Numbered from the stretch's first letter, positions 7,794 to 44,796 are shown. The stretch is 64,000 nt of DNA from Planctomycetota bacterium (GCA_024280855.1 JAJRPG010000001.1:1-64000), one strand, 5' to 3'. The notes: generated from the letters alone by a model not told the origin. Made by a program: numbers and translations.

Positions 7794-7866
7794 GGGCGAT
7801 TAGCTCAGTTGGCAGAGCGTTCGGATCACACCCGAAAGGTCACAGGTTCAAGTCCTGTATCGCCCA
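7794..7866 (+). tRNA. tRNA-Val (anticodon CAC)
   Basis: A full cloverleaf is visible: acceptor GGGCGAT pairing with ATCGCCC, D-arm GCTC/GAGC, anticodon stem TTCGG/CCGAA with loop ATCACAC (anticodon CAC at 7827-7829), T-arm ACAGG/CCTGT, and discriminator A at 7866. The CCA end is not encoded. The last 28 bases are the left attachment site of the 45-kb island, and the 3' end of the gene is preserved by the inserted element. Confidence 0.97.
7839..7866 (+). repeat. attL: tRNA-Val 3' end
   Basis: Left copy of the 28-base direct repeat. It covers the T-arm and the acceptor 3' strand of the tRNA, the usual crossover segment for tRNA-specific tyrosine integrases. The base after the repeat differs from the right copy (G versus A), then TAA matches again. 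Confidence 0.88.
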
Positions 7867-7913
7867 GTAAGAAAAAGGCTTGTATAGTAGTATATTCTAG
7901 TCTTTCCGCTTGC

Positions 7914-16969: not shown

Positions 16970-17075
16970 TTCAGCGTCTCCATTACCTTTACAGGTTCTT
17001 AGATCTTAGGGCTCAGGAATCCATAATAATTGCCTGCTTCAGAAATGTTAGTCAAGGGTAGATTTTCAGATGAGA

Positions 17076-17149
17076 AGCTAGCTGAATTCAGATGAGGTAC
17101 TCCCCGTGAAACCAGAAGTAGGACCCAAAATTAGACCCACAGGGTGGGT
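17076..17149 (+). repeat. Dispersed 52-bp repeat with hairpin, copy 2
   Basis: Bases 17076-17127 match copy 1 (9648-9699) with three differences. The following hairpin ACCCAC-agg-GTGGGT (17135-17149) takes the place of CCCAC-cc-GTGGG in copy 1. Both copies read in the same direction on the plus strand, so they form direct repeats 7.4 kb apart. This copy is 250 bases beyond the stop of the catalytic-domain integrase. Confidence 0.75.
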
Positions 17150-17401: not shown

Positions 17402-18004
17402 TCAACTAATTCTCCTATTGACTGTCGCTCGAAGCTCACTCACCGTCACATGCGAATAGATCATCGTACTTCTTACGTCACGATGATGCATGAGTGATTT
17501 CACATGAGGAAGGCTCGCTCCATTTCGGAACAAGTCCGTACAGAAGAAATGCCGCAAGCTATGAGCCGTCTTAGTCGGGAAGCCGTAACGACTGAGCATC
17601 ATCGATAGCTTTTTACTCATCTTGTTTGGGGTATAGACTGAGCCCGTTTTCGTAATGAACAATCGATCTAGAATTTCCGAGTTGCGAATCAATGGGCGAA
17701 TCTCTCGTACATACCAACGGAGAATTCTCAAGCTTCTTGTATCCAGCGGGCAATGATGACTTGTCGTACTCCACTTAGCCTCCGAAATCGAAACAATTCC
17801 AGATTCGAGATCGATGTGATTAGGTTGGTTTCGGTCGATGCTCATGGACGCAATCTCGGAGGCTCTACAGCCCGTCGCCCATGAAAAGGTAATTAGAGCA
17901 TGATCAATCCTATCAAGCATTGTACCACGTCGAGATCGCTCTCTTATGGCTCTGAGCAATTGTTTCATTTCTACTTCGGTGAAAATGCGATTGGGATTTT
18001 TCAT
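17402..18004 (-). CDS. Tyrosine recombinase, catalytic domain only
   Basis: A 200-residue integrase consisting of little more than the catalytic domain. The active-site set is complete: Arg in TGCRASEIASM (residue 47), Lys in EAKWSTTS (77), HSLRH (His148, Arg151), His173 in LMHHRDVRST, and the nucleophile Tyr in MIYSHV (183). There is no SAM-like core-binding domain in front, so DNA contact would rely on a partner or it is a shortened family. Unlike the attL integrase it looks intact. The start ATG at 18004 has GAGAG upstream. It is followed upstream in the same direction by an HTH gene and a RuvB-like gene, suggesting one recombination module. Confidence 0.88.
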   Translation of the reverse strand: MKNPNRIFTEVEMKQLLRAIRERSRRGTMLDRIDHALITFSWATGCRASEIASMSIDRNQPNHIDLESGIVSISEAKWSTTSHHCPLDTRSLRILRWYVREIRPLIRNSEILDRLFITKTGSVYTPNKMSKKLSMMLSRYGFPTKTAHSLRHFFCTDLFRNGASLPHVKSLMHHRDVRSTMIYSHVTVSELRATVNRRIS

Positions 18005-18126: not shown

Positions 18127-18591
18127 TTAACCCGCCAGCAATCGTCTTGCTACAACCGGAATCGCCTTCTCCATCGATGGTCGGTCATTTTCAAACTCTT
18201 CCAGGACGATGGCGGTCACGTCAGCAACACCAACCAGTTCCTCTCCGACGCCAAGCTGGCGGCATCCTTGAATAATTGAATCGACGAAAGTATCAGCCGT
18301 TGCGGATTTTGAGGTAGTGAGCTTCCTCTTCCTTTGGGCTCGGCTGTTCTTCGGTTTACGACGATAGAACGCTACCTCTTCGCCCGAAATGCCAACACCA
18401 CTTTTCAGGACGCCTCCGATCAGGGAAAGAAGCTCGAAATCGAAATACGGCAGCCCTTTGCTTGTGCGTTTTGGTTTCGGAAATATTCCTCGACGGACGA
18501 GTCGCCTGAGATGCGCGTCATTCATGACAAGTAACTCAGCTGTTCGCCGCATGTTGAGCCGCGCCCCTTCGTATTCTTTCGAGATTCTCAT
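18127..18591 (-). CDS. HTH (MerR/excisionase-like) DNA-binding protein
   Basis: A 154-residue protein. Residues about 14-58 (RRTAELLVMNDAHLRRLVRRGIFPKPKRT...YFDFELLSLI) read as a winged-helix of the excisionase/MerR kind: helix, turn, recognition helix, then a beta wing. A lysine/arginine-rich linker (about 78-95) and a C-terminal helical part follow. The gene is between a RuvB-like gene and a tyrosine recombinase, all leftward, so a recombination directionality factor or regulator of the module is a reasonable guess. The start at 18591 has GAGGCG 6-11 bases upstream. Confidence 0.6.
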   Translation of the reverse strand: MRISKEYEGARLNMRRTAELLVMNDAHLRRLVRRGIFPKPKRTSKGLPYFDFELLSLIGGVLKSGVGISGEEVAFYRRKPKNSRAQRKRKLTTSKSATADTFVDSIIQGCRQLGVGEELVGVADVTAIVLEEFENDRPSMEKAIPVVARRLLAG

Positions 18592-18637: not shown

Positions 18638-18796
18638 TCAATGTTCGTGAATAGTTCTTGAATTACCCGCTCGTCCAGGTCCGTTCGGACAACAAAAGCC
18701 CGACAAATGTCCGGTCGTCACGAATCTCCGGATCGACTCAAGACCACAATGCACCCGTTCAATGCTCGGACAACGTCTACGAAATGCCCGTATCAT
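18638..18796 (-). CDS. 52-residue microprotein overlapping the RuvB-like gene
   Basis: A short gene whose ATG (18796) shares the TGA stop of the RuvB-like gene in an ATGA overlap. GGAGG stands 6 bases upstream, inside the end of that gene. The product begins MIRAFRRRCPSIERVHCGLE and contains GFCCPNGPGR; it is basic and has four cysteines. No family is recognised. Overlap plus a strong ribosome-binding site argue for translational coupling. The cysteines could bind metal. Confidence 0.5.
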   Translation of the reverse strand: MIRAFRRRCPSIERVHCGLESIRRFVTTGHLSGFCCPNGPGRAGNSRTIHEH

Positions 18797-19749
18797 TGCG
18801 TGCCTCCTGGATTACTGACAGACTCGATGTGCTCTCGTCCCTTGGCTGTCAATCGTCTACCGCCTGCTCCAATTGTGACGAAGCCCATTCGCACAAGCGA
18901 TGGCTCCAGCACATCTGTCACCGTCTCAGTTGCCTCGCCGAGAACCAGAGCGAGGCTTCGCACAGAGACGGGACGGGGCTCGCCTTCGAGCAGCGTTCGC
19001 AGGATCGTCCTGTCGCCTTGATGTAGACCTTCTCCGTCTATTTCTTCCAGGTTCATTGCGTCCATTAGGTCCGCCGCTGTAGCTCGACTCCGTCGCTTCG
19101 CTTGAGTGATGTCTCGTACTCGTTCCATCAAATGCAGCGCGATGCGTGGCACGCCTCTCGCCCGTCGAGCCAATTCTATACATACGTCTTCATCGAATTC
19201 GACACCCATGCGTTCGGTCGCTTTCGATATAATCGTTTGCAATTCATTAGCCGAGTAGAATCCAAATCGAAAGTGCAAGCCAAATCTTTGGATCAATGGT
19301 CCAGACAAAGCGGATGGCAGTGTTGTTGCGGCGATCAAGGTGAAGGGTGGTACAGGAATGCGAACGGGCGCACCGTTCCTGCTTAGATTGACGTTGAGCA
19401 CGCCGTCCTCCAAGACCAGTAGCAACTCCTCGGCAGCCATCCTGCCGATACAATGCATCTCATCAATTAGCAGCATGCTTCCTTTCTTATTCAAACGGAT
19501 GAGGATGTTTCTGAGGTCCGCTGCTGTGTTGATGCATTGTCCACTGGTCACAACTAGTGTTTGATACATTTCATTGGCTAGGCAGATAGCCATGGTCGAT
19601 TTGCCAAGTCCGCCACCTGCACTTGTTAACAAGCAGTGACCAAGTGGCTCGCCCCGGTGCATAGCGGAAGCGATTGCAATTCGAGCCTTCTGTCGGATGT
19701 TCTCTTGACCTATCATCTCGTCTAAGAATTTTGGTCTGGCAGTCAACAT
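18793..19749 (-). CDS. RuvB-like AAA+ ATPase (accessory paralogue)
   Basis: A 318-residue protein that follows RuvB from end to end: RPKFLDEMIGQENI at the start, Walker A region TSAGGGLGKST (about 42-52; normal RuvB has GPPGLGKT), Walker B LLIDEMHCI (about 93-101; normally DEIH), LIAATTLPSALSGPLIQRFG (sensor 1/arginine region), RGVPRIALHLMERVRD (sensor 2, normally RGTPRIAN), then a winged-helix C-terminus. RuvB drives Holliday-junction migration with RuvA; no ruvA or ruvC is nearby, and the altered P-loop marks a specialised copy. Neighbouring recombinase and HTH genes suggest a role in element excision, integration or replication. Confidence 0.85.
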   Translation of the reverse strand: MLTARPKFLDEMIGQENIRQKARIAIASAMHRGEPLGHCLLTSAGGGLGKSTMAICLANEMYQTLVVTSGQCINTAADLRNILIRLNKKGSMLLIDEMHCIGRMAAEELLLVLEDGVLNVNLSRNGAPVRIPVPPFTLIAATTLPSALSGPLIQRFGLHFRFGFYSANELQTIISKATERMGVEFDEDVCIELARRARGVPRIALHLMERVRDITQAKRRSRATAADLMDAMNLEEIDGEGLHQGDRTILRTLLEGEPRPVSVRSLALVLGEATETVTDVLEPSLVRMGFVTIGAGGRRLTAKGREHIESVSNPGGTQ

Positions 19750-21942: not shown

Positions 21943-22272
21943 ATGGACATTTTGCAACTATTTGGAGCCAGGGTCCGAGAATTACGGGCACGTGCGGGTT
22001 TCACGCAGGCTGAACTAGCTGAGCGATGTGGAGACGGTGTCGAAATGCAGCGTGTCGGGGAATTGGAAAGGGGCGAGCAGAACTGCACGCTGAAAACTGT
22101 TCAGCGACTTGCGAAAGGATTGAACTGCGAACCGGCTGAGTTGTTCTTGTTTTCGCCGCAGGAAGTTGACCAATCCATGTCACTACTCGATGCTCGAATT
22201 GTCGATCTCTGGAAAGCGGCTGATGATCCCACCAAACAAAAAGCTATCCGCATTCTTTCTGAACTTCTCTAG
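21943..22272 (+). CDS. XRE-family helix-turn-helix regulator
   Basis: A 109-residue protein with a Cro/CI helix-turn-helix at about residues 8-66: VRELRARAGFTQAELAERCGDGVEMQRVGELERGEQNCTLKTVQRLAKGL, ending in LNCEPAELF. The C-terminal 40 residues are helical and may dimerise. GGAGG stands 9 bases upstream of the ATG. It is transcribed towards the amidoligase operon on the other strand, with 6 bases between the ends. It probably regulates itself and nearby island genes. Confidence 0.88.
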   Translation: MDILQLFGARVRELRARAGFTQAELAERCGDGVEMQRVGELERGEQNCTLKTVQRLAKGLNCEPAELFLFSPQEVDQSMSLLDARIVDLWKAADDPTKQKAIRILSELL

Positions 22273-22278
22273 TTTCAT

Positions 22279-23262
22279 CTACTCCACATCGAGGTCACGG
22301 AATTCTTCCGGTATCATCGCATCTGGTTCATTGTCGTAATCGATCATGGCTACGCTAACATGTCCGTCAGTCACATAATCAGCAGCACCACCGCGTATCG
22401 TAATAAGCACACGGGCAGGCTGGTTGAAGACAATTTGTCCGATTACTTTCTCGCAGCGCTTGCCGTCGAAGTACCATCGCCAAATGGTTCCGTCTTCACC
22501 GGACATTTCGATAAATGAACCTGCTTGAACAAAAGGAGCGATAGCGTCGAAGAGTAGCCGGTCGTCACCAAGTTTATTTCCCATGTATTCGAGCCAGGAT
22601 TCGCCGTTGGTATCTTCAACCAGTTGCCATCCCCATGCCTTCAAAGCTTCTTCCAGAGATACGAGTTGCGGTATGGTATCGGCAAAGCAGCGATGCTCGT
22701 GTGTGGCATCGGCGCTGTTGGCTCGATTTGTAACCATAGCTTTGATCGCCGCTAATGCGTGGGCCTTGAGATTCGCGTTGATCTGAAAATCTTGGCTGCG
22801 TTGCATCATACAATAGCTCATAACATTTTTCGCTTTCTTTTTGGGGTTCATTTTTTGACACAGCCATGCGTACAATGGCTTGCAATTCAACTCGCCAATA
22901 ATCAAACGTGGATGATTGGCTAAGCTTTCAGGCTTAGCGTACAGATACGTCCAAGCGGTTATCAGATGATTATCACCTGTTCGTACTGTAATTTCCTCAC
23001 GGAGGTAAAGGCTACGTTTCCGATCAGACATGCAGCCTTCGATTTGGTCAGTGATGGCAATCGCTTCATGAGATACTTTCAGTAGAATTCCTTTGACAAT
23101 GCCTTCACCTGGAATGAGAGCAGGGTACGCGCCGCAATCAACAAGTACGCCATCAATGGTTCCTGAAGTTTTGCTAATGACTAAGTCTTCGATCTGACTA
23201 AAGTTAGTTTCACCGGGCATGAGTGTGCCATAGACAAAAAGATTGATCGCTATATCAGACAT
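22279..23262 (-). CDS. Two-domain protein: GGCT-fold domain plus unknown C-terminal domain
   Basis: A 327-residue protein. The first ~120 residues are a gamma-glutamylcyclotransferase (AIG2-like) domain: LFVYGTLMPGETNF (residues 8-21), then GVLVDCGAYPALIPGEGIVKGILLKV and an acidic active-site region near TDQIEGC. The C-terminal ~190 residues are not recognised; they include a predicted helical stretch and a beta-rich end (GTIWRWYFDGKRCEKVIGQIVF). GGCT-fold enzymes cyclise or release gamma-glutamyl groups. It is the last gene of an operon with an amidoligase, so it may reverse or process glutamyl-type amide bonds. A start at MSDIAIN (23262) fits the domain better than a longer frame. Confidence 0.75.
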   Translation of the reverse strand: MSDIAINLFVYGTLMPGETNFSQIEDLVISKTSGTIDGVLVDCGAYPALIPGEGIVKGILLKVSHEAIAITDQIEGCMSDRKRSLYLREEITVRTGDNHLITAWTYLYAKPESLANHPRLIIGELNCKPLYAWLCQKMNPKKKAKNVMSYCMMQRSQDFQINANLKAHALAAIKAMVTNRANSADATHEHRCFADTIPQLVSLEEALKAWGWQLVEDTNGESWLEYMGNKLGDDRLLFDAIAPFVQAGSFIEMSGEDGTIWRWYFDGKRCEKVIGQIVFNQPARVLITIRGGAADYVTDGHVSVAMIDYDNEPDAMIPEEFRDLDVE

Positions 23263-23305
23263 GGTTGATTGTGTTCCCTGTATTCGTCGTTTTTCCAAAA
23301 TGCTT

Positions 23306-23461
23306 TCAATTTCGATCTTGAACGGAAGTATTTTGTTTTCCCTTCAGCTCCAATGAGCTCATCGCACCCGTTAAAACATGTTCGATGATATGTGCCGATG
23401 AACGGTTCACTATCTCTGCAAAACCCGCTTTTTCGAGCGTGTTCACGGGTTCGTATCGCAT
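23306..23461 (-). CDS. 51-residue microprotein in the amidoligase operon
   Basis: A short gene whose ATG (23461) overlaps the stop of the preceding 34-codon gene in TAATG. The product begins MRYEPVNTLEKAGFAEIVNR and continues SSAHIIEHVLTGAMSS, an amphipathic helical protein. No family is recognised. The case rests on coupling and composition. An overlapping frame in the same stretch (23250-23546) is less convincing. Confidence 0.4.
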   Translation of the reverse strand: MRYEPVNTLEKAGFAEIVNRSSAHIIEHVLTGAMSSLELKGKQNTSVQDRN

Positions 23462-23565
23462 TACTTTTCCGTCGCTTTAGTGCACTGGAATAAAAGGCTT
23501 CCATTCGTTGGACACTTCGGAAGTAAATGCAACATCGCACGGTCAATGAACACTTTACGTGCCAT
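23461..23565 (-). CDS. 34-residue microprotein in the amidoligase operon
   Basis: Starts one base after the stop of the 114-residue gene (TAATATG) and ends in TAATG overlap with the next small gene. The product begins MARKVFIDRAMLHLLPKCPT and has two cysteines. Its size makes a chance frame possible. The tight chaining on both sides is the only support. Confidence 0.35.
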   Translation of the reverse strand: MARKVFIDRAMLHLLPKCPTNGSLLFQCTKATEK

Positions 23566-23566
23566 A

Positions 23567-23911
23567 TTATGAAGTTCCGGGTTTATCATCAGAGGTTTTT
23601 AGCCACTGCTCGTACTCATCCTTACTGTCAAAGACATATTCTTCTGATGGCAGTTCCTCAAGATAGATCATGTTGACAGCCACCTCGCAGAAGCCTTGGT
23701 TGGCAGCCCAAACCCGCTGGGCTAAAAGGCGAGCGAATTCATCTTCTGTCATGCCAGCACAAAGACAATTATCCGTGCTCGATTCCAGTCCATCTGGAGT
23801 CGATACCACATCATCAAATCCCCAAAAATCCAACAGGGCCTGTGCAATTTCCTTTTCACGTTTAGGCACTGAGTTCTCTATGTTTACGTTTGCTCGATAC
23901 ATGCGACTCAT
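23567..23911 (-). CDS. Unknown acidic protein, 114 residues
   Basis: An acidic protein beginning MSRMYRANVNIENSVPKREK with a C-terminal YVFDSKDEYEQWLKT. The middle part (DNCLCAGMTEDEFARLLAQRVWAANQGFCEVAVNMIYLEELP) looks like two helices and a strand pair, reminiscent of small phage or plasmid proteins with no assigned role. AGGAGA stands 8 bases before the ATG. It lies 42 bases after the neighbouring gene and in the same operon. Confidence 0.65.
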   Translation of the reverse strand: MSRMYRANVNIENSVPKREKEIAQALLDFWGFDDVVSTPDGLESSTDNCLCAGMTEDEFARLLAQRVWAANQGFCEVAVNMIYLEELPSEEYVFDSKDEYEQWLKTSDDKPGTS

Positions 23912-23953
23912 CGTTACATTCTCCTTTTGCTTAGCAATTTCTCTACAATAATT

Positions 23954-24484
23954 TCAGTTCTCAAACTCTAGCGGAGGTAACACGGGAACTTCCGTGATAA
24001 TAGAAGCCAGTTGTTGCATGGCGTCGTTGCTCATTTCGGGATCGCCACTGCCAGGACATTCTGAAAAGTAATGACGTAGCAATGCGTAGGCTTTCTTAAC
24101 AGGTTCAACAGCCACCAATTCGTTGCCATCGTTGTCACAATTAAAACCGTCTGGAGCGTCCATGCCTGGCTGCCACCAGACAATCTCAGCGCCGTATTCG
24201 CAATAACTGCCACTCCATCGTGACCAGGCAACACCAAGGGCTGTTAGTGAATCTTCAAGATCATCAAACATTCCATTGCGAGATTGGTCGTCGCAGAGGA
24301 CTAAATGACCTGACTCATCGAGTGCATTTATGAGGTCTTGTTTTTTCTTGGGGGAAAAGATTTTATCCGACCATTCAGGATAAAGATTGATCCCTTCTGT
24401 GTATATGGCCTTAATCAACGCTTTAACATTGCCATTTGAAACATGCCCGCCAATGCTTATCTTGCCTGCGAAACGATCAGCCAT
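23954..24484 (-). CDS. Unknown protein, 176 residues
   Basis: Begins MADRFAGKISIGGHVSNGNVKALIKAIYTEG and contains WSGSYCEYGAEIVWWQPGMD and a helical C-terminus (AYALLRHYFSECPGSGD). The start at 24484 is preferred because GGGAG lies 8-12 bases upstream and it overlaps the preceding gene by 8 bases. No domain is recognised. Its order in the operon is fixed between the HExxH protein and the 114-residue protein, so it is a probable component of the same system. Confidence 0.65.
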   Translation of the reverse strand: MADRFAGKISIGGHVSNGNVKALIKAIYTEGINLYPEWSDKIFSPKKKQDLINALDESGHLVLCDDQSRNGMFDDLEDSLTALGVAWSRWSGSYCEYGAEIVWWQPGMDAPDGFNCDNDGNELVAVEPVKKAYALLRHYFSECPGSGDPEMSNDAMQQLASIITEVPVLPPLEFEN

Positions 24485-24947
24485 TGTTTCTTCTCCCTGT
24501 TTGTTGAATAAACGTTTCTGGTCTAACCAGCGTGTGTCCAATGTGAATCAGTCGTGAATACTGACGTGGGAAGCATTTGCGGAATAGATTGATTGACCAA
24601 CGACATGCCTCTCGTTCTCCGTGCCCCAGGGCATGAGCGAATTCATGCAGGAACGTGACCACGGACAGCTTGCCGACAATGATGATCCGGTGACTTTGCG
24701 GTCGGTAATGACTATCTCCGGTACTTCCGCCGTCAAGCTCACCAAAGATGAGCTTTGGTAGCTTAATTCTGCACGCCGCTGCCATCGAACGGTTGAGTTG
24801 ACGGAATTTCTCCTTCCGCGAATCTGTTGATCCTTTCCAAGGCTTCCATTCCGCGAATTTTTGAACCGCTTGGAGAAGATCATTGGAAAATGTCATTTGG
24901 TCATCCAGAATCTCGATAACCGTTGCTGGATATTGGCGGTCTCTCAT
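24477..24947 (-). CDS. HExxH putative zinc metallopeptidase-fold protein
   Basis: A 156-residue protein with the metal-binding motif TFLHEFAHALGHGE (His101, Glu102, His105, possible third ligand at His109 or Glu111) after a beta segment HRIIIVGKLSVV. That is the pattern of minimal zincins such as SprT or ImmA-type peptidases. A helix-rich N-terminus (about 20-60) precedes it. AGGAGA is 9 bases upstream of the ATG. It sits directly after the amidoligase gene and overlaps the next gene by 8 bases. It may cut a peptide made or modified by the operon; the substrate is unknown. Confidence 0.7.
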   Translation of the reverse strand: MRDRQYPATVIEILDDQMTFSNDLLQAVQKFAEWKPWKGSTDSRKEKFRQLNRSMAAACRIKLPKLIFGELDGGSTGDSHYRPQSHRIIIVGKLSVVTFLHEFAHALGHGEREACRWSINLFRKCFPRQYSRLIHIGHTLVRPETFIQQTGRRNNG

Positions 24948-24969
24948 GGCTACGTTCTCCTGTAATGAT

Positions 24970-25890
24970 TTAAGCGGCTCGAACAGCTGCCTTGCTATCC
25001 TGCCCTTGATTGAATTGCTTCCATCGTTTCAGTAAATATTTAGCGATTTCTCGCAAATCTTTGGACACTTTGCGATAGATACGGCTATTGCTCTTGAGTC
25101 CTGTTGTCACCAGTAGTGCGTTTAATCCTGTTTGCGTATTATCAATTGGCTCCGCTTTGAAATGACAAGAGCGTTTCACCGCGTGCTCAACCCAACGTTG
25201 CGTAGCCATTACCCATGCACGAATCTTTGACCAGTCAGTCGTGCCGCCGTGGATACGCCATTCAACTGTCATTCGGTCTGGATTAGCCAGATTGACAAGA
25301 TTGAGTCCATTATAGCGTTCCCAACCACGAAGTTTTTCACGAAGCGAAGCGTATGAAGTGCAGTTGTCGAAGATGGTGGCTTCATTACGTTGTGGTGGAC
25401 GGCAGTACATATGCGATTGACGACTTGAAGCTACCAGGCCGTACATGATACGATGGAATCGCCACCAGAGATGTTGCAAATTCCGTACTACCTGCGGCTT
25501 ATGTTCGGCTTCTGGGAAGTGATGATGGACATGCAACCCACAGCTAGCATTTACTCTCGCACCTACATAGCGGATTACGTCGAGAGCTTCTGGAAGGACG
25601 CGTTCAACTTCCTCCCACAGCATGGGTGACGTTTTCACTTCAAGCTTAGACCAACTAAGTCCGCGATACCGTGATTCATCGAGCAGTGAAGCGTCGTGTT
25701 CAACAGCAAGCTGACAACCGCGAGGTAACGGAAGATGCGTATAACCTCGTGAGCAGGATTGAATGCCATGATTGGTTAGGACTTGAGAGAGCAGTTCTTG
25801 GACATCGCGATTGGTTCCGCGTCCTATGATGGGAGCCACGAATTCGATTTCGATGCCGATTTTACGATTGAAATTGATTTGGCTTTCCAT
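24970..25890 (-). CDS. Putative amidoligase (COOH-NH2 ligase, Amidoligase_2 type)
   Basis: A 306-residue enzyme of the glutamine-synthetase-like amidoligase family. Signature parts are GIEIEFVAP (residues 12-20, metal-binding glutamates), EVKTSPM (84-90), CGLHVHHHF (117-125) and MTVEWRIHGGTTDW (about 213-226). Such enzymes join carboxyl and amino groups with ATP, often in mobile-element operons with GGCT-fold proteins, as here on both sides. Product and acceptor are unknown. I start it at 25890 (MESQINFNRKIG) because the family fold begins there; a frame to 25935 adds a hydrophobic leader without support. No strong ribosome-binding site is seen at either start. Confidence 0.85.
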   Translation of the reverse strand: MESQINFNRKIGIEIEFVAPIIGRGTNRDVQELLSQVLTNHGIQSCSRGYTHLPLPRGCQLAVEHDASLLDESRYRGLSWSKLEVKTSPMLWEEVERVLPEALDVIRYVGARVNASCGLHVHHHFPEAEHKPQVVRNLQHLWWRFHRIMYGLVASSRQSHMYCRPPQRNEATIFDNCTSYASLREKLRGWERYNGLNLVNLANPDRMTVEWRIHGGTTDWSKIRAWVMATQRWVEHAVKRSCHFKAEPIDNTQTGLNALLVTTGLKSNSRIYRKVSKDLREIAKYLLKRWKQFNQGQDSKAAVRAA

Positions 25891-25991
25891 GTGTTTACTA
25901 TAGCGCAACGTGCCTAATGCGCAAGCAAAAAACATGATTTGTTTGCGGTAAAATTAGTCAACTATCTCAGCTACTACGATGTTATATGACT

Positions 25992-26486
25992 TCATGTTGG
26001 CAGCAATGAAGCGGATGTTTGCAGCTTGATATTTAACGATTGTTGATAGTCTTCACTGAATTTGAAATGTTTTGCACCGTTAAGAATCAAAGCCCTGTAT
26101 TTAGCTGTAACAGGAAGGTCAACGTTGAGTCGATGCGTCGGTGTTACGACATACGTGATTGCTTGCACAGGCTCTTGTGTGCCCGCTGTGTGGACGATCA
26201 CTTCAGTCTCTTCATAACGATGAGGGTAGCCTTCTTTAATGCGGAGAGCGTCTTGTATCGATGGAGTGATTGTGATGATCACGCCTTCGACGCATTCGTT
26301 CTTAGAAGATTCAATGTTGCATGCGCCTGCACCATGTGTACTGGCGTAGTAATTGGTTCGTAAACGAAAGTGGTGCAACAGAGCATGTTGTCCATGTAAA
26401 TCGGTGTCCAGAGTTACGCCATGTGTGTCCAAGTAATCGGTGAAGTGGTTTAAGTTGATGTTGCTGCCGTAGGCGAAGTAGAGCAT
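25992..26486 (-). CDS. Gamma-glutamylcyclotransferase-fold protein
   Basis: A 164-residue GGCT/AIG2-like protein: MLYFAYGSNINLNHF at the start is the diagnostic YGSN loop, followed by LHHFRLRTNYYASTHGAGACNIESSKNECVEGVIITI, where the GGCT core normally reads F...G..A.I....v.G.ly.l. Family enzymes act on gamma-glutamyl amines or peptides and release 5-oxoproline. It is the first gene of the leftward amidoligase operon. The start is set at the domain boundary; the frame is open 34 codons further up, without a good ribosome-binding site. Confidence 0.82.
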   Translation of the reverse strand: MLYFAYGSNINLNHFTDYLDTHGVTLDTDLHGQHALLHHFRLRTNYYASTHGAGACNIESSKNECVEGVIITITPSIQDALRIKEGYPHRYEETEVIVHTAGTQEPVQAITYVVTPTHRLNVDLPVTAKYRALILNGAKHFKFSEDYQQSLNIKLQTSASLLPT

Positions 26487-26928
26487 GACCTTGGTAGTAT
26501 AGCTCGGTAAACGCCATGGCGCAAGAATCTGTGGGGAGTTCGCTAGTTCAGTACCGATTGTTGTGGTTTCAAAAGCAGCCTTGGCCAATAATCGAAATTA
26601 TTAATTCCGCAGAATTTCTATGGCGTATCGAAGGATAATTACATTCGAGGGGGTGGACACACAAGCCTGTGCCTGCACACATTTAGTTCGGTGTCTTGCT
26701 GATTAGCCAAGGCGTAGCAACGATTCTGCCTCCAGGACCTCACAAGCGTGATTGGCTTGAATTTTGGTTGACGACGGCGGCGCTGTTGGTTGTGTCGCCT
26801 CAATTGTGTCTAGCGATGTGGACACCGAATTGTCTTTCCTGTCCGTATCATGATCAGCAGGAGCGTGCGTGCCATCATGTGGCCCTCTGATCCATATCAG
26901 CGAATACTGTCGCATTAGTGTCACGTAT

Positions 26929-27200
26929 TCTTGTGACAGTAATAACTGGTCAGAATTGCCCCTGAGAGCATCAAAAACGCTGGTTTTGGCGTGCAAAAGT
27001 ATTTCTGTCATTTGTGTCACACTGTCACAGGGGTAGCTTGGAAAAACGGGGCGTGTCACTCTTCTTATGGATATATACTCCATTGTAAATCTAGAGCCTT
27101 GTGACAGTGTGACACAAATGACAGTATTCGATATTTCTTTCGAAAATGTCCGTTTCGACATCAAGAAGACGGTTTTTGGGAGTTTATTACTGTCACAAGA
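26929..27200. repeat. Outer inverted repeat (17-base arms)
   Basis: The arm at 26929-26945 (TCTTGTGACAGTAATAA) is exactly complementary to 27184-27200. The midpoint is between 27064 and 27065, identical to that of the inner repeat, so the whole 272 bases form a large partly eroded palindrome. Confidence 0.85.
27005..27124. repeat. Inner inverted repeat (25-base perfect arms)
   Basis: Arms at 27005-27029 and 27100-27124 are perfectly complementary and contain the unit TGTGACAGTGTGACACAAAT. Three more pairs, one a G-T wobble, extend the stem inward. The loop is about 64-70 bases. A cruciform or hairpin would be very stable. Confidence 0.9.
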
Positions 27201-27247
27201 TCCGGTGACAGAAATGTGACAGTAAACATCTTGGACACCCAAAGCCA

Positions 27248-29644
27248 TCATGTTGCGTTGTATCTTCGTGCTCGTCTTCCTCTCCCTTCTTGCTTCATTG
27301 CAAGCTCCTTCAACAGCCCATTCTTTACGAGCCTCTCGACAATTCCTTCAACATGGTCGGACGATTTTCCGCGAAGAAGATTTCTCTGAAGATCACGCAC
27401 CGATACATCCTCATGACTGGCAACATATTCGTGTACCGCTTCCTCTTCGTCTGACTGTCGAGCCTGATTTGAAATCAAATAGACCCGCTTGGATTCACGC
27501 CGAAACCACCGGGTTAATTCTATAGCCATACGCATACTGTCTGAGTCGATTTCCGTATTGGACAGAGATTGATCCTCCGTCCATCGCAACATCTGAATGA
27601 CGAGAGAAAGCTTCGCTGCTTGGCCTTCAAGTTTGGAATAGACCGATTCGAGGTATCCATCGATCTCACGCTCTTGCAACGTCACATTCTCATCGAAGAA
27701 TGCTCCCCATAAGATCGCCGCCTCAGCTGTCCATCCAACCACAACGGGGTCGTCATTCGCATCCGGTGTGAGGCTGAGAAGTTTCCCAACCATGGCATCG
27801 TACTCCGCTACGACAGATTGATCGATTCCGACTGGCGTCCATCGTTGGTATTTCTTGGGTGGCATAGCGATCAAAAAGCGTGGAGCTAATCCGTTGCTTG
27901 CGTTGTTACCTGACATCGACTGCTGCCACTGCGTCCGAGTGATCGTACCCGTGACGTTGACTGATGTCCTTGGGATTCGCATTGGTTCCTTCGCAGCTCG
28001 ATCAACCGTAGTGCCATGACCATTGAACAACTCAAGCCAGTTGGACAAATCTGCTCCCTTGGCGGTGGTGAATTGGTCCATCGCGTTGATCCACCCGGAG
28101 AGTTCGTCGTTTGCGACACAGATGCCCCTGGGGTTCTCACTCAGGATCTTGTGGACAGCCTGCAAGGTGGCGACGGACGTATGATGTCGCTCACAAACAG
28201 GCTTGTCCGGCTTCTTGGGATTGATTGCCTTCGACGCCTTTGCCTGCTGCTGATACTCGATCAACTCGTGTTCATACTGTTTCATGGCTGTGGCATGTGA
28301 CTCACAGGTCGCATCATCACGAGTTCGTAGCACGTTGATCGCAGCATGAAATGGCGGACTTTTCTTCCCGCCAGAATAAGAAATGATTACCGTCCAGAGG
28401 ATTGGAACCATCTCCCCCCCAGGCTTGGGTTGAACCGCTCGACTCGCTCCGATGGCGGTGGCTGCGACCGATAGGGCTGGTAGTATGAATCCCGCTGGAT
28501 CAACGCCCATGCTGTCTGCGACAACGTCAGCCATCTTCCGTAAGCAGGAGGGCAGAGCCGTAGCGGGAATCGACTTCCAGGTGAGGTCGTCCACCTCTTC
28601 GTTGTCTACCTTGGCCCAGTGGATCAGCGAACCGATGCCAAGACGCCCGGTTCCGTTTCCATTCGCGGAAAAAGTATCCCAATGCATCCGACAATCCTGC
28701 TCACTCGCGAACTTAGAACTCTGTTTGCTCCAATCGTTCCAAATTTGAAAGATCCGCTCGCCGGTATAGATTGTATGAAGAGCCATGCCCACGTCAATCC
28801 ACGAGCCATATTCATCACAACGCACAGAAGTCAATCGATCCAAACATTCTCGTGCTTTGATGATGTCCGTCTCGCTACCGCTGATTACATCAATGATCGA
28901 AGTATTGGATTCGTCATTCGACCGTTTCCCCTTGAACATGTCGATAGAATTTTCTGGAGGTGTTGGGAATTCGATGAGCGGATAAGTCGCTTCCTTCGTC
29001 ACACTGTGAAGCTTCGCAGGCTTATTGCGCCTGTGGTTGATAAACCCAGGGACACGCATCACTCGCGGCGGATCATGGATCTTGAGGTCAACTTCCAGAT
29101 CGACCGTGACAACTTCCTGGATGATTGCTTTCTGGTACTGGGACCACTGCCCCGGTTGTAGCGCTTCGTCGAGCCGCCAATAGCAGTGAATGCCTGCTCC
29201 TGAGGTCAACGTAATCGTTGGAGCGGGTAATTCGCATTCTTTGAACTTGAAGTAGAACTCGTTTAGCTCCGTATTTTCGATGTCAATGCACAGACTTCTA
29301 CAGATGGAAACGCATCTAGTACAGCGTCCGCAACCCGTACAGTTTGCTGCCCTGGAGCCGTCACCTTCGCAGGAGCGAGGGTTGCAGCCGACGTAAATGC
29401 TCTGACCGTCATCGTTCATGTCGATGAGCCACGGTAACACATCATTGACCGTGGATGCGAGCGTCCATCTGCTCTGTTTGGAGGGCAAAATGCGAAACTC
29501 CAGGATGTCAGATGGCTCGTAGAGGGCATCGACAAACTGGAGGACTTGAAAGTACGTTCCTTCTGATGCATCTTCGTGGGGGACTGTCATGGTAGCCGAG
29601 TGTAGTGGTGCCTCGGCTATGTCGGTTTGGATATTCTCGTTCAT
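27248..29644 (-). CDS. RepB-type primase / PriCT / DUF3987 replication protein
   Basis: A 798-residue mobile-element replication protein. An N-terminal primase-polymerase region (to about 215) has LTSGAGIHCYWRLDEA (146-161) and PPRVMRVPGFINHRR (192-206), the usual RepB-primase pair; unusually a cysteine-rich insert (CNPRSCEGD...CTGCGRCTRCVSICRSLC, about 87-119) could bind metal. A PriCT-2 domain follows (about 262-340; FQIWNDWSKQSSKF...RLGIGSLIHWAK). Then a DUF3987 helicase-like domain (about 360-750) has IISYSGGKKSPPF in place of a normal P-loop. It should prime and unwind replication of the excised island. Two leader hairpins and a 3' palindrome flank it. Confidence 0.85.
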   Translation of the reverse strand: MNENIQTDIAEAPLHSATMTVPHEDASEGTYFQVLQFVDALYEPSDILEFRILPSKQSRWTLASTVNDVLPWLIDMNDDGQSIYVGCNPRSCEGDGSRAANCTGCGRCTRCVSICRSLCIDIENTELNEFYFKFKECELPAPTITLTSGAGIHCYWRLDEALQPGQWSQYQKAIIQEVVTVDLEVDLKIHDPPRVMRVPGFINHRRNKPAKLHSVTKEATYPLIEFPTPPENSIDMFKGKRSNDESNTSIIDVISGSETDIIKARECLDRLTSVRCDEYGSWIDVGMALHTIYTGERIFQIWNDWSKQSSKFASEQDCRMHWDTFSANGNGTGRLGIGSLIHWAKVDNEEVDDLTWKSIPATALPSCLRKMADVVADSMGVDPAGFILPALSVAATAIGASRAVQPKPGGEMVPILWTVIISYSGGKKSPPFHAAINVLRTRDDATCESHATAMKQYEHELIEYQQQAKASKAINPKKPDKPVCERHHTSVATLQAVHKILSENPRGICVANDELSGWINAMDQFTTAKGADLSNWLELFNGHGTTVDRAAKEPMRIPRTSVNVTGTITRTQWQQSMSGNNASNGLAPRFLIAMPPKKYQRWTPVGIDQSVVAEYDAMVGKLLSLTPDANDDPVVVGWTAEAAILWGAFFDENVTLQEREIDGYLESVYSKLEGQAAKLSLVIQMLRWTEDQSLSNTEIDSDSMRMAIELTRWFRRESKRVYLISNQARQSDEEEAVHEYVASHEDVSVRDLQRNLLRGKSSDHVEGIVERLVKNGLLKELAMKQEGRGRRARRYNAT

Positions 29645-30685: not shown

Positions 30686-31198
30686 TTAAGTATTGTCAAC
30701 GCCGTGATTAGGGTCTTGCCATATATATGTTAATGATCTATCCATTAAATCGTGATCCTCTGATTCGCTCAATCCCGCAAATTCCGATACCTGATACAGC
30801 GCTGGCAACCACCTTTTCGTTAGTAAATCCTGTATCTGCTTCGGGTGCATTTCTGCAATCGCCTCGTCAGTAAGATATGGAAGCAAGGAACATCGCAAGA
30901 TGATATGTAAACCCGATAGATTTTTCGATAAGAAAAAGAGCCAGTAAGGAAACTTATCATCTAGATCGAACACATAATTTCTAACCTCTTCTATTTCGTC
31001 TAGCTCACGATTGTCATAATTGTAGCCATCAAACGCAATGTCTACTTTCTCCATGTTTGCTCTCGCGATCTGTGGTGACTTTATGAGCGATTTGAGAGCT
31101 TCAAGTACGGGTTCTATGTTTGCACTTTCAACATTTTCACGAGATACAACGATACATAGAGGATCGCCGAAAGGTTGAAAGTCTGTGCTTGTTGACAT
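30686..31198 (-). CDS. Protein resembling the chlororespiratory-reduction-6 (Crr6) family
   Basis: A 170-residue acidic protein. The stretch DIAFDGYNYDNRELDEIEEVRNYV followed by LDDKFPYWLFFLSKNLSGLHIILRC resembles bacterial proteins annotated with the Crr6 domain (FDGYddDPREL...PYWLFFL). That resemblance is from memory and unproven. Bacterial members have no known role. The start at 31198 (MSTSTDFQ) has GAGG 10 bases upstream; a longer frame to 31285 is less likely. It stands immediately left of the DISARM operon and points away from it, so it may share the control region. Confidence 0.55.
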   Translation of the reverse strand: MSTSTDFQPFGDPLCIVVSRENVESANIEPVLEALKSLIKSPQIARANMEKVDIAFDGYNYDNRELDEIEEVRNYVFDLDDKFPYWLFFLSKNLSGLHIILRCSLLPYLTDEAIAEMHPKQIQDLLTKRWLPALYQVSEFAGLSESEDHDLMDRSLTYIWQDPNHGVDNT

Positions 31199-31285
31199 AT
31201 TACGGAATCCTCTACTACACACAACAATGAAGTAATTCATGCCAACCAAGTTAAAGCACACATCACGCATAAGGCATCCGATCAA

Positions 31286-31557: not shown

Positions 31558-34500
31558 ATGGAATTCACGATGGTATCGATGCAAAATGCAGCACCTGAAC
31601 AGGGACAGCTAGTACGTGTCCGATCTCGAAACTGGATCGTGAACGACATTGCACCTAGTACGCTCCCCACGCACGGACTGTCTGGACTTGGCAACGGCCA
31701 GACGCTGCTGACACTTTCATCCATCGAGGACGACGGGCTTGGTGAAGAACTACAAGTAGTATGGGAACTAGAGCCGGGATATCGCATCATTGAGAAAGTA
31801 GCGCTGCCCGATCCAACAGGCTTCGATTCGCCAGATGAGTTGAACGCCTTTTTGGATGCCGTTCGCTGGGGTGCATCTTCGTCTGCCGACGTTCGCAACA
31901 TTCAGTCGCCGTTTAGATCCGGCATCGACATCGAGGACTACCAACTCGACCCTGTCGTTCGTGCGATTCAGATGCCTCGCGTCAACTTGCTCATCGCTGA
32001 TGATGTCGGTTTGGGAAAAACCATCGAGGCAGGATTGGTGGCGTTGGAACTCATCATCCGCCACCGCGCCAGAAAGATTCTAATCGTGTGTCCGTCGTCG
32101 CTGCAAATCCAGTGGCAGGAGCAGATGCGAGACAAATTTGGCTTGGACTTCCGCATTGTGAACAGCCAACTCATGAAGGAACTGAGACGGCAGCGTGGAA
32201 TTCACGTGAATCCATGGAACCACTTCCCACGGCTCATCACATCCATCGATTTTCTGAAGCGAGAACGACCTCTACGGATGTATCGAGAGATTCTGCCCGG
32301 CCCTAACGATCCGATTTATCCCCGTAAATTCGACCTGATGATCGTTGATGAGGCCCACAACTGCGCCCCATCGGGGCGAGGGAAATACGCCACGGACTCA
32401 CTGAGAACGAAAGCCCTCCAACTTCTGGTCCCGCACTTCGAGCACAAACTGTTCCTGACTGCCACACCGCACAACGGATATTCGGAGAGTTTCTCGGCTC
32501 TGCTGGAACTTTTGGACAACCAACGATTCGCTCGCAGCACTAAGCCAGACCGAAAGCAACTCGAAACAGTGATGGTCAGACGGCTGAAATCCGAACTGCC
32601 ACCGAAGTGGGATGGATCACCTCGGTTTCCAAAACGGATACTTGACCCGCTGGAGGTCCCCTACACGGATGAGGAACGTGAGATTCATTCAGCATTGAAG
32701 ACTTACGCGCAGCTGCGGGCCAAGCGGTCCCGTGACAACAGCGAATCAATGGCAACTGATTTCGTGATGATGATTCTCAAGAAGCGAATGTTTTCAAGCC
32801 CCGCTGCGTTCATCACTACGCTGGACAAACACAAGGCATCACTACAAGCAGCAAAGAAACGAAAAGGTTCTGAGAAACCGTCTATCGGAATCTTAAAGCG
32901 AGAGATCGACCGTATCGAAGAGGACTACGCTGATGACAACGACTACGACGTAGCCACTGTTGATGCCGTTGATACCGCCAGTCGTTTGTTTTCAGAGCCA
33001 AGCGGTGAGGAACTCAAACTTCTCAAAAAGATGGGAGATTGGGCCCAACGAGCCTGCGCACAGAATGACTCGAAATGTAAAAAGTTGATCGCCTGGCTAA
33101 AGGAAAACATTCGGCCCAACGGCAAGTGGTCCGATCAGCGGGTCATCATCTTCACCGAATACCGTACTACACAGAAATGGCTATCCGAGGTGTTTGCCAC
33201 GGAGGGGTTCAGTGGGCAAGACCGGCTGATGACGATGTACGGCGGCATGGACCCCAAGCAGCGGGAAGCGATAAAGGCTGCATTCCAATCTGCTCCCGAC
33301 CAGAGTCCGGTTCGGATTCTGCTCGCCACCGACGCTGCCTCGGAAGGAATCGATCTCCAAAACTTCTGCTCGAATCTAATTCACTACGAAATACCGTGGA
33401 ATCCCAACCGCCTTGAGCAGCGAAATGGACGAATTGATCGTCACGGACAGAAGGCCGACGAGGTGCTCGTCTACCACTTCGTAGCCGAGGGATATAAGCA
33501 ACGTCAGTCTACCAGCACGTCCGTAGCGGCAAGTGATTTGGATGCCGACTTGGAATTCCTGATGCGGGTAGCGCAAAAAGTGGAAGCGATTCGAGAAGAC
33601 CTCGGGAACGTGGGGCCGGTTCTCGCCGACGACGTTGCAGCTGCCATGCTCGGTCACGGTTACACGCTGACGAGCACGACTACCGCCGAGCAGAAGAGCG
33701 GCCCAGTTCGCAAGATGCTTAAGTTTGAACGAGACTTGGCTAAACAGATCCAATCACTGATGGATCAATACAAAGCAACTCGGAAAGAACTTCGCCTCTC
33801 ACCAACCAACGTTCAAAAGGTTGTAGAAGTCGGACTCAGACTCGCAGACCAACCGGCGTTAATTCCAGTTAAAAACAGCGACGGCAAGCAGATTTTCCAA
33901 CTGCCCGCTTTGCAACACAGCTGGGCTGCTTGCAGGGAGGGCTTGGAGCACCCACATACGAAAGAGACTCGGCCAATAACATTTGACGAAACGGTAGCAC
34001 ATGGTCGGGACGATATAGTGTTGGTTCACTTGAACCACCGTCTTGTACAAATGTGCCTTCGTCTCTTGCGTGCTGAGGTTTGGTCGATCGAAGGTCGCAA
34101 AAAAATGCATCGGATCGAGGCTCGTATCGTTCCCGACGCCGCCCTGAGCGATCCTGCAATGATTGCCCATGCTCGTCTGGTTGTAATCGGCGGTGATACG
34201 CATAGGCTTCATGAAGAAATCATCACCGCAGGTGGATCGATAAAAGAAGGTCGTTTAAGTCGGATGAACGTCGGCCAGCTATCCGACGCGCTGGCTGCTA
34301 CGACCGACGACGAACCGTCCAAGAGTGTGAAGCAACGGTTTCTCGACATCTGGGATACGCTTGTCCCGTCACTCCAACAGGCATTGACGGCCCGCACCAA
34401 GGAGCGGACAAAGGGATTGGAAAAACGTCTGCAAGAACGGGCCGAGAAGGAAGCCGCAGACATAGAATCGATCCTGTCGGAGTTGAAGCGAGCCATTGAA

Positions 34501-34722
34501 AGTGAACTGAACGATCCCGAGTACAAGCAATTGGAATTGTTCAGCGATCCGGAGAAGGAGCAGTTCGAACGGAACAAGGATTTTCTGCGAAACCGTGTGA
34601 CGCAAATTCCTGATGAGATCAAACGAGAGACTGAAGCTATCCGAGCCAGGTACGCAGACCCTCAGGCAAGGATGTTCCCAGTCGCAGTAACGTTCTTGGT
34701 CCCGAAAAGATTAGCAAAATAG
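31558..34722 (+). CDS. drmD: DrmD-like SNF2/SF2 helicase (DISARM class 1)
   Basis: A 1054-residue SNF2-family helicase. Motif I is IADDVGLGKTIEAGL (about residues 140-154), motif II MIVDEAHNC (about 261-269), motif III FLTATPHNGYSESF, then motifs V-VI LATDAASEGIDLQNF and IPWNPNRLEQRNGRIDRHGQ (about 588-627). A charged helical tail (about 930-1050) follows. In DISARM class 1, DrmD is the large helicase encoded with DrmMI and the DrmA/DrmB core, and the system blocks incoming phage DNA. It is first in a five-gene rightward operon, 44 bases before drmMI. An alternative start is the ATG at 31570. Family assignment rests on order and motifs together. Confidence 0.85.
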   Translation: MEFTMVSMQNAAPEQGQLVRVRSRNWIVNDIAPSTLPTHGLSGLGNGQTLLTLSSIEDDGLGEELQVVWELEPGYRIIEKVALPDPTGFDSPDELNAFLDAVRWGASSSADVRNIQSPFRSGIDIEDYQLDPVVRAIQMPRVNLLIADDVGLGKTIEAGLVALELIIRHRARKILIVCPSSLQIQWQEQMRDKFGLDFRIVNSQLMKELRRQRGIHVNPWNHFPRLITSIDFLKRERPLRMYREILPGPNDPIYPRKFDLMIVDEAHNCAPSGRGKYATDSLRTKALQLLVPHFEHKLFLTATPHNGYSESFSALLELLDNQRFARSTKPDRKQLETVMVRRLKSELPPKWDGSPRFPKRILDPLEVPYTDEEREIHSALKTYAQLRAKRSRDNSESMATDFVMMILKKRMFSSPAAFITTLDKHKASLQAAKKRKGSEKPSIGILKREIDRIEEDYADDNDYDVATVDAVDTASRLFSEPSGEELKLLKKMGDWAQRACAQNDSKCKKLIAWLKENIRPNGKWSDQRVIIFTEYRTTQKWLSEVFATEGFSGQDRLMTMYGGMDPKQREAIKAAFQSAPDQSPVRILLATDAASEGIDLQNFCSNLIHYEIPWNPNRLEQRNGRIDRHGQKADEVLVYHFVAEGYKQRQSTSTSVAASDLDADLEFLMRVAQKVEAIREDLGNVGPVLADDVAAAMLGHGYTLTSTTTAEQKSGPVRKMLKFERDLAKQIQSLMDQYKATRKELRLSPTNVQKVVEVGLRLADQPALIPVKNSDGKQIFQLPALQHSWAACREGLEHPHTKETRPITFDETVAHGRDDIVLVHLNHRLVQMCLRLLRAEVWSIEGRKKMHRIEARIVPDAALSDPAMIAHARLVVIGGDTHRLHEEIITAGGSIKEGRLSRMNVGQLSDALAATTDDEPSKSVKQRFLDIWDTLVPSLQQALTARTKERTKGLEKRLQERAEKEAADIESILSELKRAIESELNDPEYKQLELFSDPEKEQFERNKDFLRNRVTQIPDEIKRETEAIRARYADPQARMFPVAVTFLVPKRLAK

Positions 34723-34766
34723 GGAAACGGTTAATATTCAAAACGAAGTTACGGATTCGTCCTAAT

Positions 34767-37700
34767 ATGTCCATCGCAAGACATCACGCTGAATGGCTTT
34801 CACTCATCGAAGTCTCAGGTCCCTTCCTGAGCCTGCCGGTGTTGGTGCAGAAATTTCCGCAAGGATTGGAAAATCACGATCCCGATCATTTTCGTTTGCT
34901 GCGCCAGGTCCACGAGGAATGGGAAGACAATCAGCGAGGCGATGCGCCGGATCGAGCGATTCACAATCAGTGGATCAAGTGGAATCTTTGCAACACACTC
35001 GATCTAGAAGAGTCGCTGGTCGAAGGACAGAACATTCCGCAAACACTCAAAGCGGAACTGCCCGAACACGGCGAGATTTTGCGGCCCGACATGATCGTGC
35101 TGAGACCCGACAGTGAGAAGCCGAGGCTGCTGATCCAAACGTATCCACTTAGCCAAAAGCTAAGTCGGGTCGTCGAGGGTAAACCATGGAAGGCTTCACC
35201 GGATACTCGCATGATGCAACTGCTGCACGATACCGACGTGCAGTTGGGGCTGGTGACCAACGGAGATCAGTGGATGCTGGTCTATGCGCCCAAGGGAGAA
35301 ACATCCGGTTACACATCCTGGTATTCAACAATCTGGTTGGAAGAATCGCAAACGCTTCAAGCATTCCGCACCTTCCTCGGCAGTTATCGATTCTTCGGCG
35401 TCCCTGAAGATGAAACTCTCGAACACCTTCTTGCTCAATCTGCCGAGGATCAGCAGGAAGTTACCGACCAGCTTGGTTATCAGGTTCGCAGAGCGGTCGA
35501 GGTGCTGGTCCAATCTTTGGACAAGGCTGACCGTGCCCACGGCGGAACACTCTTGGCTGATGTGCCCGAAGAACGACTCTACGAGTCGGCGTTGACTATC
35601 ATGATGCGGCTGGTGTTTCTTTTCTGCGCTGAAGAGCGTGAGTTACTCTTGCTTGGCGATGAACTATACGACAAGAACTTTGCCGTCTCAACATTACGGG
35701 AACAGTTGCGCGAGACCGCCGACAACCACGGCGAAGAGATTCTCGAACGTCGTCACGATGCGTGGAGCCGACTGCTGACAACGTTCCGCGTCGTGTACGG
35801 CGGCGTCCAACATGACCGCCTGAAACTTCCTGCCTACGGTGGCAGCCTGTTCGACCCGGATCGGTTCCCGTATTTGGAAGGACGACATCGGGATACCAGT
35901 TGGAAAGATACGCCCAGCGAGCCGCTTCCGATTAACAACCGCACCGTGCTTCATTTACTGGAAGCTCTTCAGGTACTTCAGATCAAGTTACCCGGTGGCG
36001 GTCCTGCCGAACCTCGCAAACTTAGCTTCCGTGCGCTGGACATCGAACAGATTGGCCATGTATACGAAGGTCTGCTTGACCACACAGCCAAGCGAGCAAC
36101 TGAACCCGTGTTGGGATTGAGCGGCACGCGCAACAAGGAACCAGAGATCCCACTCAGCGAGTTGGAAGCACTTGCAGCTAAGGATGAAGGCGAACTCCAC
36201 AAAATTCTTCAGAAAGAAACCGGCAGGTCTTCTGTCAATCCGATCAAGAAGATGCTCTCCGCCGAACTCGACGACCAGACCGTCAGCCGCTTTCGTACTG
36301 CCTGCCAAGGTGATAAGAAGCTTTGGCAGAGGATCAAGCCGTTTGCTGGTTTGGTGCGGATGGACACGTTTGGTTACCCCGTTGTGATTTCTAAAGACAG
36401 CGTCTACGTCACATCCGGAACCGACCGCCGCTCCAGCGGAACGCACTACACGCCCAAAAGCCTGACCGAGCCGATTGTTCGCTACACGCTGGAACCACTC
36501 GTTTACGTAGGACCAGCTGAAGGAAAACCCAAGGCAGAGTGGAACCTGAAGTCTGCGGCGGAATTGCTGAAACTCAAGATCTGCGACATGGCCTGCGGGT
36601 CGGGAGCGTTTCTGGTTCAGGCTGCTCGATACATGGCTGCGCGACTGATGGAAGCGTGGGATGCAGTGGAGAAACAGGTCGATGGACAATCTCGGATCAC
36701 ACCATTGGGTGAAGTCTCTAAGGGGGGAGCAAGTGAACAATTAGTGCCGCTCGATCCTGGCGAGCGTGAAGTTTATGCAACGCGGATCGTCGCGCAGCGT
36801 TGTCTTTACGGCGTGGATGTGAATCCTCTCGCAGTGGAGATGGCCAAGCTTTCGTTGTGGTTACTTACGCTTGCCAAGGACAAAGCTTTTGGGTTTCTGG
36901 ACCATGCGATTCGTTGCGGTGATTCACTGGTGGGCCTTCATGATCTGGAACAGCTACGTCATTTTAGTTTGAAACCTGATGAAGAAGATGCGGTGCTTTT
37001 CAAGGGGCCGCTTGATGATGCTGTGGATGAAGCACTCAGGCTTCGATTGAAACTCGAGGACATGCCCGCCAATACCGTCGCTGATATCGAAGCTCAGGAG
37101 AAGTTACTGAGTGAGGCTGATGATAAGATCGCCCGTCTGCGGTGTGCTGCTGACCTATTGGTAGCCGCTGAGTATTGGAGTAAGAACGCCAAAGACAAGG
37201 CCGACAAGATTCAACATGCTGCTATTGCCTCGGGCTACTACGTTGAGAAGGGGCCGACCGACGAATTCGAAAAGAAGGCCGCCAAGGAACGCCGTGGGCA
37301 GAAGATGTTTCACTGGCCGTTGGAGTTCCCAGAAGTGATCGTAAAGCGGGGCGGATTTGACGCATTCGTTGGGAATCCGCCGTTCGTTGGAGGAAAGAAG
37401 ATCACCGGCGCACTTGGAACTCCGTACCGGGAGTTTCTCATTTACGTTCTAGCGGGAAGTACGAAGGGACATGCAGACCTATGTGCGTACTTCTTTCTCC
37501 GTGCGTCGATTCTAGTGCGTCAGAACGGACAATTCGGCCTCCTTGCCACGAACACTATTGCCCAGGGGGACACGCGTGAAGTCGGTCTGGATCAGCTGGT
37601 ACGAGATGAGTTTGAAATCACAAGGGCAACTCGAAGTCAAAAGTGGCCAGGGATTGCGAACCTTGAAGTGTCCCAAGTTTGGCTCCGATGCGGTGTATGG

Positions 37701-38804: not shown

Positions 38805-38805
38805 A

Positions 38806-44786: not shown

Positions 44787-44796
44787 GTACCAGAAT

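Follow-up and report, generated by a model that had tools for sequence, protein, structure and literature searches.

What kind of system is formed by a glutamine synthetase (GS)-like amidoligase, a small HExxH protein and two GGCT-fold proteins encoded side by side in a planctomycete genome? We addressed this question for a cassette at positions 22279-26486, on the minus strand, of a 64,000-nt stretch of Planctomycetota bacterium (GCA_024280855.1 JAJRPG010000001.1:1-64000; hereafter, the window). Our tentative answer, held with a little less than even confidence, is that the GS-like amidoligase, a mini-zincin and two GGCTs form a cargo cassette of an element integrated at tRNA-Val, and that this cassette is related to phage amidoligase modules. 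The analysis shows its gene content, linkage, folds, conserved residues and mobility; its reactions, target and purpose we infer. The cassette comprises the following features, in the order of transcription:

25992-26486, minus strand: GGCT-A, an AIG2/GGACT-fold protein (likely start ATG 26486; begins MLYFAYGSN, with a catalytic-type Glu in KEGYP)
24970-25890, minus strand: GS-like amidoligase (Amidoligase_2, PF12224), a core gene (likely start ATG 25890)
24477-24947, minus strand: mini-zincin with an HExxHxxGxxE motif, a core gene (likely start ATG 24947)
23954-24484, minus strand: 176-residue accessory protein of a plasmid-type family, outside the core (likely start ATG 24484)
23567-23911, minus strand: 114-residue accessory protein, local (likely start ATG 23911; open reading frame (ORF) with a Shine-Dalgarno sequence)
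23498-23523, minus strand: hairpin motif CTTCCG...GGAAG, 3' of the 114-residue gene
22279-23262, minus strand: GGCT-B, a PF06094 domain followed by a C-terminal domain (likely start ATG 23262)

The amidoligase matches PF12224 with 82.3 bits (cut-off 22) over profile positions 2-245 of 245. Specifically, residues G12, E14, E16, D66, E84, H120, H122, E210 and R212 are invariant among 14 sequences, and the GxExE, HxH and ExR motifs are all kept in these sequences; because of the invariant residues, the predicted amidoligase is consistent with an active enzyme. Its predicted model (predicted local distance difference test (pLDDT), 83.6) adopts a glutamine-synthetase fold and can be superimposed on glutamine synthetases with Z of up to 14.7 (241 aligned), the best matches including 1-naphthylamine GS. 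YbdK gives Z of about 13, and Foldseek matches of the model include PafA and Dop.

GGCT-A scores 40.6 bits against PF13772 and 33.1 bits against PF06094, and GGCT-B scores 76.8 bits against PF06094 (PF06094 cut-off, 22.8). Residues Y6, G7 and E85 are invariant, both the YGS/YGT motif and the catalytic Glu are present, and GGCT-A shares this motif and Glu with its relatives without variation. The gene types named in a preliminary description of this locus, an amidoligase, two GGCT-fold genes and an HExxH protein, are all found, each on Pfam or motif evidence above chance. The same description had reported a new C-terminal domain on one GGCT. The extension is real: the PF06094 domain of GGCT-B spans approximately residues 1-130 and is followed by a C-terminal domain of ~190 residues. 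However, it is local and not without relatives, as residues 214-292 match phrog_38862 (6.5e-9), and the domain occurs as a stand-alone protein in Arthrobacter phage Rizwana and in an IMG/VR viral contig of 548 kb. The GGCT-B proteins of the relatives G007 and G027 are only ~140 amino acids long, without the extension, and the C-terminal domain is a putatively gained, local extra.

GS-like ligases form amides via an acyl phosphate, GGCT and GGACT enzymes release gamma-glutamyl amines as 5-oxoproline, and GGACT-type GGCTs split epsilon-(gamma-glutamyl)-lysine. By this logic, the amidoligase would spend ATP to activate a carboxylate, by analogy with GS as gamma-glutamyl phosphate, and would then join the activated group to an amine, whether of a peptide, a protein or a small amine, while GGCT-A and GGCT-B would remove gamma-glutamyl amines as 5-oxoproline, in editing, turnover or deprotection. 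The making and trimming of an amide mark, as previously proposed for this locus, fits the GS fold and the amine-releasing GGCT families; the accompanying idea that tiny genes within the cassette encode the substrate is unsupported, since no small ORF is conserved among relatives. Specifically, nothing in relatives matches the ORFs of 34 and 51 amino acids at the protein level; these ORFs therefore probably do not belong to the system as genes and are ruled out as a conserved substrate, and no conserved small protein or ORF was found in the gap between the HExxH gene and GGCT-B.

The structural matches also bear on two rival readings. The amidoligase could put a glutamyl or peptide tag on lysines of host or phage proteins in a PafA-like manner, with GGCT and zincin removing or processing the tag. 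The Foldseek matches to PafA and Dop, the cleavage of epsilon-(gamma-glutamyl)-lysine by GGACT-type enzymes and a peptidase as recurrent partner argue for protein tagging, which we nevertheless consider unlikely: although the amidoligase shares the GS fold with PafA and Dop of pupylation, ordinary glutamine synthetases match it better, and neither a Pup-like substrate gene nor a conserved small tag gene is seen in the cassette. Alternatively, the ligase could act on a free amine, such as a polyamine or another metabolite, with GGCT reversing the reaction and the zincin as a separate factor. GGCT is the classical partner enzyme of gamma-glutamyl amines, and the amidoligase resembles both the aromatic-amine gamma-glutamylating 1-naphthylamine GS and YbdK in fold and in its expected phosphoryl-carboxylate chemistry, but at 11-16% sequence identity it is not a member of either group. 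This second alternative is doubtful to a similar degree, because it leaves the linked zincin unexplained and because no gene for amine catabolism or uptake is seen in the cassette or between the cassette and the integrase.

The HExxH protein, in which the cassette proposed here would find its peptidase, has no significant match in Pfam, PHROG or PDB sequences. Alignments of 4 to 19 homologues keep LHEFAH, a following E and WS..LF, and HE..H is invariant across the 19-member alignment. Most members carry the motif as HExxHxxGxxE, so that E111 is a candidate for the third zinc ligand; mini-zincins with an HExxHxxGxxD form are described in PMC3890501. The model made from the 19-row alignment (pLDDT 93.7) has a mini-zincin fold, with selecase (Z 5.9), CapP (5.5), jannalysin (5.2) and IrrE (5.2), then Wss1 and ArdC, as structural neighbours. 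The Z values are modest (4-6 for the top matches), yet the neighbour list is consistent; Foldseek alone returned nothing for the model at E <= 0.001. The protein shares the small zincin fold and HExxH with the minigluzincins (selecase and jannalysin), IrrE and CapP, but has no sequence-level match to them, its third-ligand candidate is the E of HExxHxxGxxE, and its genomic partner is an amidoligase. The zincin would cleave a peptide bond of either the substrate or a partner protein.

The resemblance to IrrE and CapP, together with an XRE gene that is oriented towards the cassette and retained in the G027 element, could also be taken to mean that the zincin acts as an ImmA/IrrE-like protease on the XRE repressor of the element and only happens to sit next to the metabolic cargo. 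We regard this as improbable, as amidoligase and GAT-II (class-II glutamine amidotransferase) are what recurs beside it in phages, and the Pfam M78 (ImmA/IrrE) profile matches 0 of 19 members at E 0.1; the Z of 5.2 to IrrE would be compatible with a distant kinship to M78. PADLOC gives no defence-family match for either the zincin or the amidoligase.

Is the cassette a unit? The intergenic gaps from GGCT-A to GGCT-B are 101, 22, -8, 42 and 304 nt. This spacing makes the single leftward operon of the preliminary description plausible, except that the last gap, before GGCT-B, is long. Comparison with relatives, the closest being metagenome-assembled genomes of Phycisphaerae or Planctomycetota, delimits the core. 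Of the 51 genomes in the host's family, four, all of different genera, have a member of the amidoligase clade; the HExxH family is present in 13 of 397 genomes of the class, eight of the 13 having an amidoligase beside it. In G007 and G027, from other genera, GGCT-A, amidoligase, HExxH gene and GGCT-B are directly adjacent in this order, with no further gene recognised between the HExxH gene and GGCT-B; parts of the run occur elsewhere, and the copy in G024 is decayed, its HExxH frame running into an integrase frame. Because the G007 and G027 cores run without them, the 176- and 114-residue genes look inserted. The 114-residue gene is absent from L003/L004, and neither protein was assigned to a Pfam family. 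Homologues of the 176-residue protein, from plasmids of Alphaproteobacteria and from four further genomes of this class, lie among plasmid housekeeping genes. With the window excluded, amidoligase and HExxH genes are missing from the surroundings of all nine homologue loci, which serve as a contrast to the HExxH linkage, and a viral-contig scan with this protein found nothing. We ruled it out as a core part, its homologue loci having no amidoligase, HExxH or GGCT gene nearby. The four core genes recur together, and the 176- and 114-residue proteins and the GGCT-B C-terminal domain are local extras. A chance assembly of unrelated cargo genes would account for exactly these additions, but the core recurs across genera and, reordered, in many phage contigs, which already contradicts it for the core and makes it highly improbable.

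The hairpin TTTACTTCCGA...GGAAGC is present in a single copy per locus (window 23498-23523; L056 5595-5620; L081 2967-2993). It sits just past the HExxH gene in L056 and L081, and past the apparently inserted 114-residue gene in the window.

The association extends to viruses. IMG/VR was searched with an HExxH profile built from four planctomycete members, the amidoligase being unused, which gave 18 contigs; a wider profile gave 20, and merging of duplicates (L039/L040 and L042/L045) left 18 distinct viral contigs. A GS-like amidoligase lies close to the HExxH gene in 13 of these 18. Eleven of the 13 are PF12224-type by profile (the match in L063 is weak and without a Pfam match), and two, in L048 and L049, are PF14395 (phiEco32-like COOH-NH2 ligase). 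Most contigs with both genes also hold GAT-II, and GGCT is found in L035, L042 and L043; L044 shows an amidotransferase only, at the contig end. Among the best 80 phage-type amidoligase loci, GAT is present in 65 and HExxH in 18, while 38 GAT loci include amidoligase in 31 and HExxH in 19. Neighbour clustering over 121 amidoligase loci was blurred by spurious high-GC frames. Because gene orders vary and two ligase families take part, these data argue for a real amidoligase-HExxH association, in which the zincin is, on gene neighbourhood, a newly recognised recurrent partner of the phage-type amidoligase. In related phage modules, the ligase appears constant, with GAT-II, GGCT and zincin in varying combinations. 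Conserved co-occurrence in other genomes, on which the preliminary description depends, holds for amidoligase and HExxH (with GGCT or GAT) in both planctomycete elements and viral contigs, but not for the 176-residue protein. An ASCH-like ORF, assigned by eye from sequence, recurs downstream of amidoligase/GAT (L139 4636-5451; ~30 amidoligase loci, viral contigs).

Several observations weigh against the cassette as we read it. HExxH genes occur without an amidoligase nearby in G510, G525 and G519, and without amidoligase or amidotransferase in L036, L037, L039 and L041. Because loci with an amidoligase supplied the HExxH seeds, the linkage counts are biased upward, and the figures overstate independence, as every query goes back to a linked locus and many of the phages are related by descent. 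Some phage loci have GAT-II in the place that GGCT takes in the window, which means that not all of these systems include the GGCT step, and a profile built on two phage GATs detects no GAT-II in the window. Finally, in a G569 prophage homologue (L086 7977-8411) HExxH is lost, reading MLHLFAK, beside an intact amidoligase and GAT-II, and zincin catalysis may therefore be dispensable.

Iyer et al. 2009 (doi 10.1039/b917682a) reportedly predicted phage modules of amidoligase, GAT-II, ATP-grasp and GGCT (phiEco32 type). As cited in PMC10580990, PMC11253131 and PMC11318856, these modules are predicted to modify the cell wall and to prevent superinfection, and PMC10945688 cites them for Phage-ZRK32. 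In the literature covered, which leaves out subscription papers, we found no test of this prediction and no text tying amidoligases to an HExxH partner. The cassette shares with these modules a GS-like PF12224 amidoligase and a GGCT together on a mobile element, but it has two GGCTs and no GAT-II nearby, the Pfam scan of the cassette genes gives no ATP-grasp match, and a zincin goes unmentioned for the modules in the available passages of these four papers. It is best read as a variant of these modules that lacks GAT-II, has two GGCTs and includes the zincin as an added partner. Phages with GAT-II instead of GGCT may draw on glutamine-derived ammonia.

How does the cassette travel? Direct repeats bound an element of ~45 kb, from 7839 to 52845, at tRNA-Val, with the following features:

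7839-7875, plus strand: left attachment site (attL), the 3' end of tRNA-Val(CAC), whose gene is at 7794-7866
52809-52845, plus strand: right attachment site (attR), a direct repeat of 37 bp that copies the 3' end of tRNA-Val (94.6% identical; copy also in G001)
8616-9398, plus strand: tRNA-adjacent tyrosine integrase (PF00589, 30.2 bits; region 80% identical to that beside this tRNA in G001)
17402-18004, minus strand: short (200 amino acids) tyrosine recombinase, backbone (PF00589, 75 bits; homologues in L081 and L083)
18127-18591, minus strand: helix-turn-helix (HTH; excisionase-like) protein, backbone (same place in L056, L059, L060, L083 and L115)
18793-19749, minus strand: RuvB-like AAA+ protein, backbone (PF05496, 121 bits; downstream of the cassette in L056, L059, L081 and L083)
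21943-22272, plus strand: XRE-type HTH regulator facing the cassette (PF13560, 46.5 bits; homologue in the G027 element, L056, 2.8e-51)
27248-29644, minus strand: primase/helicase-like protein with PriCT_2 and DUF3987 (69 bits and 183.8 bits, respectively)

The congener G001 agrees with the window in left flank, tRNA and integrase region, and also has a copy of the tRNA 3' end and a matching right flank, but its element at this tRNA carries no cassette; it holds type I restriction-like genes (by sequence, without profile) and the run of RuvB-like, HTH and integrase genes. The same run follows the cassette in G027 and, as far as their partial or decayed copies show, in G051 and G049, and is found in parts in G640 and G726. 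At a putative empty site in G002, the left flank and tRNA match and the right side does not. Furthermore, PADLOC finds the class 1 DISARM genes drmD, drmMI, drmA and drmB at 31558-44786 in the window's element. The attachment repeats, the G001 element without the cassette, the recurring backbone run and the DISARM and restriction co-cargo identify the cassette, at sequence level, as mobile cargo; such elements tend to hold defence genes.

Other features of the element were noted. A NERD-helicase follows the DISARM genes, in a run (31558-46488, plus strand) transcribed away from the cassette, and two adjacent type II methyltransferase-like genes lie at 46907-48558 (minus strand). A 61-bp direct repeat (92%; 9640-9700 and 17068-17128) is possibly a second recombination site or marks a nested segment; both copies follow a tyrosine recombinase gene, at a distance of a few hundred bases from its 3' end. 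Upstream of the cassette, beside the DUF3987 primase-helicase gene, ten TGTCAC/GTGACA words fall within ~310 bp (26919-27221). This region looks like an origin or operator rather than ORF 26703-27251, which overlies these palindromic repeats and is doubtful as a gene. A Crr6 match (PF08847, 29.3 bits; family named from chloroplast biology) lies at 30686-31285 (minus strand).

What would such cargo do? Probably, a host component, for example an envelope peptide or protein, would be modified to the benefit of the resident element. A broader proposal, which we think distinctly unlikely, is that one conjugation/deconjugation system is common to phages and integrative elements. In it, the ligase would attach an amide-linked mark to an envelope peptide or a protein of the host, which GGCT or GAT-II would tune, and the mini-zincin family would supply the dedicated peptidase for this mark, serving superinfection control or counter-defence. 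For its target, the phage amidoligase literature covered here still rests on the 2009 prediction. The recurrent zincin partner provides a second enzyme, whose substrate should reveal the target of the amidoligase, and the compact four-gene planctomycete cassette offers a tractable set.

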